20,093 nucleotides of DNA from a virus. Shown here piece by piece: positions 2,464 through 13,264 of this stretch. Under the pieces are notes generated by a model. That model saw nothing but the letters and a program-made list of their open reading frames with translations. It did no database searches and was not told the origin of the DNA. The translations under genes and the position numbers were made by a program. Each line of letters starts with the position of its first letter. The stretch's first letter is position 1. The stretch lies in IMG/VR virus record IMGVR_UViG_3300034120_000452, positions 1 through 20,093 of that record. One strand, given 5' to 3'.

Positions 2464-2477
2464 GGTTGGTGGGTTTA
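2464..2477 (-). promoter_or_regulatory. C/A-rich translation leader, copy 3
   Basis: The minus strand reads TAAACCCACCAACC directly before the ATG at 2463. It is the same element as at 2595-2607 and 2854-2866, with one extra C. Its TAA is the stop of the 2475-2594 gene. There is no Shine-Dalgarno sequence. Confidence 0.45.
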
Positions 2478-2594
2478 GTTGGTGATAATTGCGAGAAAGA
2501 ATCTGCCGAAAAATGCGAGGCCGAGGCAGGTGGTCAGCACGATGTAGCCCGTCGCAAGGGCTGCTTTGAGTTTGGTTTTGGTTTCGTGGGTCAT
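2475..2594 (-). CDS. Membrane microprotein (39 residues)
   Basis: ATG at 2594, TAA at 2475-2477, 39 residues. A basic N-terminus (MTHETKTKLKAA) is followed by one hydrophobic span (LATGYIVLTTCLGLAFFG, then RFFLAIITN), which predicts a single-pass small inner-membrane protein. Three points support it as a real gene: it fills an otherwise empty gap exactly, it is preceded by the same 13-14-nt leader as both neighbours, and its stop codon is part of the leader of the next gene. It could be a superinfection-exclusion or host-takeover peptide; that is a guess from size and topology. Confidence 0.6.
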   Translation of the reverse strand: MTHETKTKLKAALATGYIVLTTCLGLAFFGRFFLAIITN

Positions 2595-2853: not shown

Positions 2854-2866
2854 GGTTGGTGGTTTA
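2854..2866 (-). promoter_or_regulatory. C/A-rich translation leader, copy 1
   Basis: TAAACCACCAACC immediately before ATG 2853. It is identical to the 2595-2607 copy but here no upstream gene supplies the TAA, so the sequence itself, not a stop codon, seems to be conserved. Confidence 0.5.
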
Positions 2867-2874
2867 GTGTCCGA

Positions 2875-3264: not shown

Positions 3265-3266
3265 CT

Positions 3267-3692
3267 ATGAGAAATATAACCCACCTCGTCGTCCATTGTA
3301 CGGCCACGCCGAAGAACACCACTATTGCATCCATCCGCCGCCATTGGAAGGAAGGGTTGGGCTGGAAGGCGGTGGGGTATCACAAAATCATTGAACCCAA
3401 CGGGAACATCACGACGCTGGCAACCGACGACAAGGTGACCAACGGGGTTGCAGGACACAACGCTACGAGCCTCCATGTGTCCTACATTGGAGGCAAGGAC
3501 ACGGACGACCGAACCATCCAGCAGAGGCAAGCCATCGCAGGGGTGCTGCTATCGTGGTTGCAGAAATATCCGAAGGCCCGCATTTGTGGCCATCGTGACT
3601 TCCCAGGCGTGACCAAGGCTTGCCCGCAGTTCAACGCAGAGAAGGAGTACGGTTACCTGTACCTAACCGCAAACGATACGCAGGAGGGATAG
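3267..3692 (+). CDS. N-acetylmuramoyl-L-alanine amidase (endolysin)
   Basis: 141 residues, one Amidase_2 (T7 lysozyme-like) domain without a cell-wall-binding domain. It cuts the bond between muramic acid and L-alanine in peptidoglycan. Seen: zinc/catalytic residues in the expected order, H10 (LVVHCTAT), Y38-H39 (GYHKII), H64 (VAGHN), H109 (GHRDFPG), K117 and C119 (TKACPQF). By comparison with T7 lysozyme the zinc ligands are H10, H109 and C119, with Y38 and K117 catalytic. Size is normal for the family. No signal peptide, so export needs the holin, encoded at 4879-5106 on the other strand. It ends 22 nt before the convergent phosphoesterase gene. Confidence 0.93.
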   Translation: MRNITHLVVHCTATPKNTTIASIRRHWKEGLGWKAVGYHKIIEPNGNITTLATDDKVTNGVAGHNATSLHVSYIGGKDTDDRTIQQRQAIAGVLLSWLQKYPKARICGHRDFPGVTKACPQFNAEKEYGYLYLTANDTQEG

Positions 3693-11542: not shown

Positions 11543-11571
11543 CAAATGTAGGATGCGCCCGAATTTCACAA
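11543..11571 (-). promoter_or_regulatory. Promoter TTG-N18-TACATTTG
   Basis: The minus strand carries TTG (11571-11569), an 18-nt spacer and TACATTTG (11550-11543). Both elements and the spacing match the known Bacteroidota sigma-factor promoter (TTG, 17-23 nt, TAnnTTTG). It lies across the end of the glycosyltransferase gene and 8 nt before GTG 11534. It would start a separate transcript for the two fibre genes, the portal and later genes. Confidence 0.65.
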
Positions 11572-12642
11572 TTTGCGCCCGATGCTTCGGTAGAGTTCGG
11601 CCCTCCGTTCGGCGGTCTTGCTGATGTCAAACCGCTCCCTCACATCCTTGGACAACTGCACGGCCAAGGAGCGAGCGTAGTCGGGGTCGTTCACAAACTT
11701 GCGGACGGCCTTGTACCAAGCGTCCTTCTTGCCGTAGGGTATGAGCAACCCGTTGTGGCCGTGGACGATTATGTCCGTGTAGGGGATGGTTTCGGATGCG
11801 ATGATAGCCTTGCCCATCCATCCCGCTTCCACGACTTTCAGTTCGCTTTTAAGGCGGTTGAACTTGGTATCACGGAGGGGGGCAATCGTGGCGTTGATGA
11901 AGTTGTAGCCGCCCACATAGGAGTAGATGTCCGCCGCTTGGATGCGGCCGTAGTTCTTGTTCAGCCCCCTGCAGGATAGCATCCGCTCGTAATCGTCATA
12001 GACGGGGTTGCCGTCGTTCCACCCGCCAAGGTAGATTTTGTAACGGCCATCCAGCGACTTGTCGTGGGCCAGCAGGCTGAAGGAATGCTCCACCAAGGCG
12101 ATGTCCTCCTGATGCTGCGCCCCGCCAAACCATCCGATTTTGAACAGGTGCGGTTCGGGTTCAGCAGTCGTGTCGGGCAAGTACTGCTGATAGGCTTCGT
12201 AGGGTTCGTTGGGGAGGATGGTTACCTTCTTGTTGAGCAGGCGAATCTTTTGTGCGAGGTGTTCGGTCGTGGTGGTCACATGGTCAGCCAAGCGGATGTG
12301 TTCCCGTATCTGCTCGTCAAGTTTGGTGGACAAATAGTGTCGGTACATGATGTGTCCCGATTCCAGCACCCAATAGTCGTCAAGGTCCAAAATAACCTTC
12401 GCTCCAAACGCCGTGAGAGCCTCGTAGACCTTCCGAATTTGTTCCAGCGTACCTTGACACCAAAGACGATTGAAAAGCCACACATCGACCGTCTTTAGGT
12501 CTTCATCCTTGACATTGGCGATGTTGTCCACGCAGACATAGTCAAACTCCGTGTAGTTGTCGCCAAGATAGGCGTTTGGCATTTCCAGTCGGTAAAAAGA
12601 ACACCCCGTCGGGTGAGCGTTGTAAACGATGCAAATTCTCAT
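11566..12642 (-). CDS. Glycosyltransferase, GT-B fold (GT4-like)
   Basis: 358 residues from ATG 12642 (MRICIVYNAHPTGCSFYRLE). A GTG at 12669 would add 9 residues but lies upstream of the promoter box. N-terminal Rossmann half: acceptor side, with DVWLFNRLW and AKVILDLDDYWVLESG. C-terminal half: nucleotide-sugar side, with FKIGWFGGAQHQEDIALVE, then RLKSELKVVEAGWMGKAIIA, then YTDIIVHGHNGLLIPYG. The last two carry the conserved 'kSElKvvEag..g..vias ... G.nGlL' region of GT4-type enzymes. It would move a sugar from a nucleotide donor to a virion protein or a host glycan. It has its own promoter box and a terminator in front, inside a block of virion genes. Confidence 0.85.
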   Translation of the reverse strand: MRICIVYNAHPTGCSFYRLEMPNAYLGDNYTEFDYVCVDNIANVKDEDLKTVDVWLFNRLWCQGTLEQIRKVYEALTAFGAKVILDLDDYWVLESGHIMYRHYLSTKLDEQIREHIRLADHVTTTTEHLAQKIRLLNKKVTILPNEPYEAYQQYLPDTTAEPEPHLFKIGWFGGAQHQEDIALVEHSFSLLAHDKSLDGRYKIYLGGWNDGNPVYDDYERMLSCRGLNKNYGRIQAADIYSYVGGYNFINATIAPLRDTKFNRLKSELKVVEAGWMGKAIIASETIPYTDIIVHGHNGLLIPYGKKDAWYKAVRKFVNDPDYARSLAVQLSKDVRERFDISKTAERRAELYRSIGRKL

Positions 12643-12645
12643 GCC

Positions 12646-12653
12646 CAAAGGTA
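12646..12653 (-). promoter_or_regulatory. Glycosyltransferase promoter -7 box TACCTTTG
   Basis: TACCTTTG on the minus strand, just after the terminator T-run and 3 nt before ATG 12642. Transcription should start at or very near the ATG. No good -33 TTG, because the region upstream is the terminator stem. Confidence 0.5.
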
Positions 12654-12654
12654 C

Positions 12655-12686
12655 AAAAAAAAGGGCCACCCCTTGCGAGATGGCCC
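12655..12686 (-). terminator. Strong Rho-independent terminator after the tail-tube gene
   Basis: Minus strand GGGCCATCTC-GCAA-GGGGTGGCCC, a 10-bp stem (two G-U pairs) with a GNRA-type GCAA loop, followed at once by eight Ts (12655-12662). It stops transcription from the capsid/tail-tube genes before the glycosyltransferase. Confidence 0.88.
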
Positions 12687-12722
12687 CTGACCACTAAACC
12701 ATGCGGGCGTATGAGAACCCGC
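12655..12722 (-). ncRNA. Candidate small RNA downstream of the tail-tube gene
   Basis: A TATCTTTG box (12727-12734) lies 2 nt after the tail-tube stop, and the terminator at 12655-12686 ends the stretch. The expected RNA is about 65-70 nt with two stem-loops: GCGGG/CCCGC near the 5' end (TGCGGG 12718-12723 with CCCGCA 12702-12707, 10-nt loop), a single-stranded TGGTTTAGT linker, and the GCAA-capped terminator. Alternatively these are only 3'-end hairpins of the tail-tube mRNA. Confidence 0.3.
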
Positions 12723-12726
12723 AGGT

Positions 12727-12734
12727 CAAAGATA
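12727..12734 (-). promoter_or_regulatory. -7 box TATCTTTG
   Basis: Minus-strand TATCTTTG, 2 nt after the TAA of the 12737-13264 gene, the same distance from a stop as the box at 347-354. No convincing -33 element. Confidence 0.35.
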
Positions 12735-12736
12735 GT

Positions 12737-13264
12737 TTACGAACCGCTGATTTGTGCGGTCAGCGCAGAGAATGTTGCTGGCAAGATGTTCAGCATGGCG
12801 TCGGGCTCCATGCCCGTCAGCGTCATCTCGTAGCCTGAACGGTCACCGAATGCAGTACCCGTTCCAGCAGTCCCAGCGGAGGCTTCCAAGCCATTCGCAG
12901 CACCCAACACCCAGTAGCGGTTGTTGTTGTCTTGGACGATGACCAGCAAGCGATTCCGAGCCAAGAGGCGCAGTTCATTCCGCACGGCGGTCTGCAACTT
13001 GTTGATGGTAAAGGTTACTTCGGGAGTGTAGAACAAGGTTCCGTTCTCGGTGCTTGCGTTCAAGGTTTCCGTCATGGACGAAGTGGCCTTAGTCAAGTCG
13101 TACTCGTAGAATCCCGATGAGAAACCCGTGAAGCCTGTGACCGTTCCGCTTCCGTTGGTGTTCACGGAACCCGTTGGGTTGAAGGCTTGGACAAAAATAG
13201 TTTTGATGCCGCCGACTGAATCACGGCATCCGAGGGCGTAGCCCGTAGTTAAGGAGCAAGACAT
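12737..13264 (-). CDS. Major tail (tube) protein-like
   Basis: 175 residues. Begins SCSLTTGYALGCRDSVGGIK, continues with strands TIFVQAFNP, FYEYDLTKATSSMTETLNAS, GTLFYTPEVTFTINKLQ, RNELRLLARNRLLVIVQDNN, RYWVLGAANGLEAS, and GYEMTLTGMEPD. The last third ('l....l.vivqDnNg.ywvlG...Gle...g...G...GD.sGYem.ltG.e') is the beta-sandwich core of a tail-tube-type protein conserved in Bacteroidota siphophages. It comes after the major capsid gene and before a strong terminator, as expected for a highly expressed virion protein. The leader is A/T-rich (TTAAAATAAAATATACACT) with no Shine-Dalgarno. Confidence 0.7.
   Translation of the reverse strand: MSCSLTTGYALGCRDSVGGIKTIFVQAFNPTGSVNTNGSGTVTGFTGFSSGFYEYDLTKATSSMTETLNASTENGTLFYTPEVTFTINKLQTAVRNELRLLARNRLLVIVQDNNNRYWVLGAANGLEASAGTAGTGTAFGDRSGYEMTLTGMEPDAMLNILPATFSALTAQISGS

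Follow-up and report, generated by a model that had tools for sequence, protein, structure and literature searches.

The gap between the genes for a tail-tube-like protein and a glycosyltransferase (minus strand, 12736-12655) in a 20-kb virus record combines a promoter-like box, a hairpin and a transcription terminator, and raises the question of whether it ends an mRNA in the ordinary way or encodes a regulatory RNA. The window referred to below is the whole analysed stretch of 20,093 nucleotides (IMG/VR record IMGVR_UViG_3300034120_000452), the structural genes of which are likewise located on the minus strand.

Genomic context

The gap is preceded by the gene for the tail-tube-like protein (12737..13264, minus strand; PHROG match phrog_19091) and followed by that for the glycosyltransferase (11566..12642, minus strand; phrog_7162, Pfam Glyco_trans_1_4). 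The label 'tail-tube' for the phrog_19091 gene is plausible, because the modest AlphaFold model of its product (pLDDT 69) retrieved mainly tail-tube proteins from the PDB with Foldseek (best E-value 3e-3). The nearest cultured matches of this protein belong to the Nonlabens phages P12024S/L only (33 % identity), and the RNA element is absent from these sole cultured relatives. The search of bacterial genomes yielded one remote glycosyltransferase match; a Bacteroidota host is suggested by the promoter type. Literature searches retrieved no description of an element in the tail-tube/glycosyltransferase gap.

Anatomy of the gap

On the minus strand, the stop codon TAA of the tail-tube-like gene (12739-12737) is followed by 2 nt, the box TATCTTTG (12727..12734), a hairpin (12702..12723), the linker TGGTTTAGTGGTCA (12688..12701) and an intrinsic terminator (12655..12688). 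Each element listed for the gap by a first-pass annotation made from the letters of the window (stop, 2 nt, -7 box, stem-loop, linker, GCAA-capped terminator and eight T) is thus present. The stop codon stands 2 nt ahead of TATCTTTG, a candidate -7 promoter box of a small RNA, which is invariant in the group of phages to which the window belongs (family 1) and the word of which recurs before other genes. Applying the box-to-start distance given in PMC6847099, transcription of the small RNA is predicted to start at about 12722. The hairpin TGCGGGT-TCTCATAC-GCCCGCA, which is indicated by folding, by its variants and by complementarity, presents TCTCATAC as its loop; the loop plus one stem base (TTCTCAT, 12717-12711) is antisense to the start of the glycosyltransferase gene. 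The linker, with the seed TGGTTTAGTG at 12701-12692, is antisense to the leaders of several phage genes. The terminator consists of a 12-pair stem (12688-12661) with a GCAA loop and a run of eight T, and is the top-listed terminator of the whole window. The fold of the stretch far surpasses those of its dinucleotide shuffles (z -5.7), none of 200 equalling it. As in base-pairing small RNAs, an intrinsic terminator is joined to a conserved structured body.

Neither the window nor members of families 3, 4, 6 and 7 matched any Rfam covariance model at the gathering score, including that of C4 antisense RNA. Derivation from a tRNA, to which the D-arm-like linker and the likeness of the loop to that of an initiator anticodon would point, was considered and rejected, as ARAGORN (no tRNA or tmRNA) and Rfam found nothing.

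Conservation among related phages

From IMG/VR, 138 loci with a readable gap behind a tail-tube homologue were taken, some of them sharing contigs, and further scans added more. The unit is kept between the tail-tube and glycosyltransferase genes in more than 100 relatives and is therefore not a product of chance. The first-pass annotation had suggested comparing this gap in related phages and had made its proposal depend on conservation of the -7 box; the unit as such is conserved, and the -7 box is invariant in family 1 and altered or absent in others. In family 1, the box in its extended form TATCTTTGAC, the loop word CTCATAC and the linker GTTTAGTGGT are practically unchanged, while stem, terminator loop and spacing vary. 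Fifteen hairpin variants occur among 97 distinct loci, all of which variants fold as a hairpin, 14 with a loop of 8-10 nt containing CTCATAC and the remaining one with an extra base; one stem pair occurs as U-A, A-U or G-C. Families 2 and 5-7 are laid out in a related way, and what families 3 and 4 have at this position is unrelated in sequence.

More distant phages have a plain terminator in the gap, as would suit an ordinary 3' UTR, in which a stabilising hairpin and a terminator would end the tail-tube mRNA and any complementarity to other genes would be a by-product of composition and shared ancestry. Against this reading, loop and linker are invariant in an otherwise variable RNA.

Complementarity to the starts of phage genes

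Base-pairing of the TGGTTTAGT linker with mRNAs, which the first-pass annotation had suggested looking for, is indeed predicted on the phage side: the linker is complementary to the leaders of several phage genes. Predicted targets in the window are CACTAAACCA (2860..2869, minus strand; 10 bp with the linker) in the leader of an 82-aa gene starting MPQTIKK, ACTAAACC (2472..2479, minus strand; 8 bp with the linker) in the leader of a Rad52-like gene, and TATGAGAA (3266..3273, plus strand; 8 bp with the loop) where the endolysin (amidase) gene begins. Those predicted recurrently are the genes for a DnaB-like helicase, the Rad52-like protein (or another gene at that place) and the endolysin, as well as the 82-aa gene. 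In several genomes, the word TATCTTTGACC precedes a leader containing AACCACTAAACC, a perfect complement of the family 1 linker over 12-15 nt, and 33 of the 53 plus-strand copies of ACTAAACC fall into gene starts (19 genomes).

The whole RNA, beginning at its predicted +1 (at the hairpin for family 3) and running up to the terminator, was tested against gene starts other than that of the glycosyltransferase. At least 9 complementary bases were found for 31 gene starts in family 1 (3.4 with shuffled RNA, P 0.003), 16 in family 2 (3.2, P 0.016) and 4 in family 3 (0.6, P 0.04; one of the 4 is an extended glycosyltransferase ORF), counts that are not independent, because genomes within a family are related, and that come from simple ORF calling with several word lengths and families examined. 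The excess persists when only leaders upstream of the ATG are considered and when shuffles preserve CAT, and site density in gene starts is roughly 5-10 times the expectation. With leader-only 9-mers, cognate combinations of RNA and genomes gave 16, 10 and 4 matches, as compared to 0-2 for combinations between families; the complementarity is thus largely specific to the phage's own family. The RNA of a second locus (228-354, locus 1), tested in the same way as a control, showed no excess complementarity to gene starts. Conserved anatomy, hairpin and terminator are accordingly accompanied by excess complementarity concentrated at gene starts, which is conserved and exceeds the controls, as in small RNAs acting by base pairing.

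The linker alone, tested against its own shuffles, reached a weak P of 0.1, and several genomes have no significant target. An apparent co-variation of the family 2 linker with the leader word CTCAAACCTC was abandoned in favour of the whole-RNA test, its few genome hits probably being mostly the element itself. The weak linker-only test would fit the ordinary 3' UTR, as would the leaders being A/C-rich and related within families. The results of the dinucleotide and CAT-preserving shuffles, the contrast between cognate and non-cognate combinations and the negative control with locus 1 speak against complementarity as a mere by-product, and render the 3' UTR reading rather unlikely.

Genomes L298-L330 share a constant promoter and leader (TATCTTTGACCTACAAACCAACCACTAAACC), situated upstream of the SSB gene at a distance of about 2-3 kb and followed by differing small ORFs, a fixed leader with changing ORFs that resembles an insertion hotspot; an analogous leader, TATATTGCAGGCGTAAACGACAACGA, occurs in family 3.

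Complementarity to the glycosyltransferase start

The glycosyltransferase gene of the window starts with ATGAGAA (12642-12636), to which TTCTCAT is exactly complementary; with G-U pairs included, the match extends over 13 nt (0.1 % of random windows match over this length). Corresponding matches are found in family 2 (TTTTCAT with ATGAAGA, 11 nt including G-U pairs), family 3 (CTTCGTTGTCGTTA with TAACGACAATGAAG over 14 nt; 0 of 1495 windows as long) and family 4 (GTTCGTTTAC with GTAAACGAAC, 10 Watson-Crick pairs; 0 of 1280 windows). Families 3 and 4 hence still pair over 10-14 nt with the start region, even though their sequences are unrelated to that of family 1. In family 3 loci, the non-coding part of the glycosyltransferase target is kept while the flanking bases change. 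When all families were compared with each other, the cognate pair came out on top for families 1, 3 and 4 and was shared for family 2, and families 5-7 showed a weak match or none. Loop pairing with the glycosyltransferase start amounts to 5 bp only in many variants of family 1. In three family 3 loci (L492, L493 and L494), the AACGACA target site is duplicated upstream of the glycosyltransferase gene, together with a second upstream ATG.

Candidate promoter boxes on both sides of the terminator

In a sigma-A promoter of the Bacteroidota type, the box TATCTTTGAC would occupy positions -12 to -3; variation in family 1 starts directly after it, and the word TATCTTTGACC also stands at promoter distance before other genes of these phages. 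No conserved -33 element was found upstream of TATCTTTG. Some members of family 2 have an altered box (TATCTTCG), and families 3 and 4, which retain the antisense, have no box; the RNA of families 3 and 4 may therefore represent a 3'-terminal portion of the tail-tube mRNA. The late small RNA postulated in the first-pass annotation agrees well with the data, gaining from the invariance of TATCTTTGAC, the occurrence of TATCTTTGACC before other genes and the complementarity of the linker to leaders, and losing from the missing -33 element, the altered box in part of family 2 and its absence from families 3 and 4. In family 7 (locus L641), the word TATCTTTGACC is kept behind the tail-tube stop codon and pairs with GGTCAAAGG at the foot of a long hairpin; a search for antisense to the following gene gave none.

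Downstream of the terminator, TACCTTTG (12646..12653, minus strand) may be the -7 box from which the glycosyltransferase is transcribed into a leaderless mRNA; five families (1, 2, 5, 6 and 7) have a box of the form TAnnTTT(G/A) at -11 to -13 relative to the ATG. The -7 box of Flavobacterium johnsoniae occupies -12 to -5 relative to the transcription start (PMC6847099), and the glycosyltransferase mRNA would therefore begin approximately with its AUG. In F. psychrophilum, leaderless mRNAs account for a minority of 5.5 % (PMC9723704), and few other genes of these phage genomes have a box arrangement of the leaderless type, one of them behind the word TATCTTTGACC. An 83-aa gene (MTYHSTRP...; at about 3013 of the window, plus strand) is preceded in 14 genomes by the box TAAATTTG, at a distance of exactly 12 nt from the ATG, and because of this second case the phages may habitually make leaderless mRNAs. 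In genomes G001-G016, a gene of about 183 aa (MASAEQ/MQSAE...) is preceded by a terminator and by TACCTTTG or AATCTTTG just before the ATG, which is the terminator-then-leaderless-promoter layout of the glycosyltransferase gene.

Pairing in cis and DNA-level alternatives

The proximity of antisense and glycosyltransferase start could also serve a lock in cis: in read-through RNA, arm and loop of the post-stop hairpin would fold onto the glycosyltransferase start, and the enzyme would be translated only from its own leaderless promoter between the arms, like e and soc of phage T4. Such a promoter-like box is present between the arms, and the minimum-energy fold of read-through RNA pairs the start with hairpin arm and loop, enclosing the terminator, in the window and in families 2, 3 and 5. 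By partition function, the AUG region is paired with a probability of 0.87 in the window versus 0.33 when the hairpin segment is shuffled, and in T4 the longer transcripts are repressed about 100-fold (PMC3014915). Taken together, the folds predict a sequestered start codon in the window and in families 3 and 5. The lock is, however, not predicted in the common family 1 variants L007, L092 and L131, nor in families 6 and 7, and it leaves unexplained the invariant linker and its match to the leaders of distant genes. A purely cis-acting lock was rejected, as the partition function supports it in some variants only, and the lock as the explanation of the element is distinctly unlikely; for the glycosyltransferase of some variants, the predicted folds make it a real possibility, compatible with a role in trans.

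Invertible promoters are common in Bacteroidota, and inverted repeats of 7-11 bp flank the terminator in several families. An element acting at the DNA level, be it a protein-binding site or a switch that inverts, is nevertheless very improbable, the pairing being partly G-U and shown in a hairpin loop, as expected of RNA, and inversion being rejected by its absence from all 184 family 1 segments (0/184).

Proposed mechanism

The reading preferred here, to which we give an even chance, is that the gap encodes a late, terminator-capped antisense RNA repressing several phage genes in trans. This confidence is not set higher, because the evidence is sequence comparison among related genomes, some genomes lack a target, the linker-only test gave P 0.1, and several word lengths and families were examined. 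An RNA of about 65-70 nt would start at TATCTTTG and/or remain from the 3' end of tail-tube mRNA, both sources carrying identical seeds. Its hairpin loop and single-stranded linker would be two seeds pairing with translation initiation regions: that of the neighbouring glycosyltransferase and, via a shared leader motif, those of the DnaB-like helicase, the Rad52-like protein, the endolysin and a gene of unknown function. The loop word CUCA conforms to YUNR, which is typical of fast-pairing antisense loops. Initiation at paired starts would be blocked, and, because the RNA arises from the structural (late) region, translation of the targets would be lowered once the structural genes are on. Transcription as a separate RNA, action in trans, repression and timing are what we infer from these features.

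More tentatively, and with some doubt, the RNAs of the gap may form a late small-RNA family co-evolving with a leader motif of the phages' own early genes, one RNA switching off a whole set (replication, recombination, lysis and surface modification) when the structural genes are expressed. To our knowledge, most phage antisense RNAs have a single target or a few of them, or are directed at the host. If true, seeds tracking a common motif of the phage's own leaders would constitute a post-transcriptional early-to-late switch; as seed and leaders are not the same in related phages, this idea lends itself to a direct test. The RNA would also be one of the rare regulatory RNAs of such freshwater phages, which are abundant and have received little study.

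Relation to known systems

The c4 RNA is located upstream of its own target within the same transcript. In phages P1/P7, this antisense RNA carries complementary sequences in loops and blocks a phage gene around the ribosome binding site (PMC12197685). The gap RNA would likewise be a phage antisense RNA with complementary sequences in RNA loops; c4, in contrast, has a single target and a role in immunity, whereas several further targets are predicted for the gap RNA, which has no Rfam match and is separated from the neighbouring gene by a terminator. In T4 e, soc, 49 and I-TevI, a 5' arm lies upstream, a promoter is adjacent and the start is sequestered only on longer transcripts (PMC3014915). 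The gap would share the upstream 5' arm and has a candidate promoter immediately ahead of the gene, but differs in the terminator between the arms, in a lock predicted in some variants only and in predicted targets elsewhere in the genome. SdhX is a terminator-ended 3' end of an operon mRNA regulating other genes by base pairing (PMC6393394), to which the phage RNA would correspond in its terminator-ended position at an mRNA end and its predicted base-pairing regulation. SdhX is an Hfq-dependent sRNA of an enterobacterial host, whereas the gap RNA is phage-encoded and has its own candidate promoter in families 1, 2, 5 and 7.

A different structured RNA at positions 228-354

The first-pass annotation regarded the gap as an exact repeat of the layout at locus 1 (minus strand, 228-354), with dissimilar sequences and a shared design. 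Exactness does not hold: in locus 1, stop codon, 2 nt and TAACTTTG are followed by about 25 nt of spacer that include another -7-like box (TACATTTA); next come two hairpins, the second of them small, and a terminator with a different, larger loop complementary to that of the first hairpin. The dissimilarity is nearly right, save for the word GTTTAG in the linker of both loci. A common design is supported no further than the succession of promoter, hairpin and terminator, locus 1 kissing internally and having no excess at gene starts. Kissing between hairpin and terminator loops was looked for in the gap as well and is absent, the terminator loop there being a varying tetraloop. No Rfam match was obtained for the locus 1 RNA. 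There is strong sequence support for locus 1 being a conserved, structured kissing-loop RNA different from that of the gap: its loop-loop complementarity of 7-8 bp is kept through seven different sequences in relatives (strong covariation), among them TTCCGGC/GCCGGAA, GTAGAGG/CCTCTAC, ATTGCAGC/GCTGCAAT and ATTCAGGC/GCCTGAAT.
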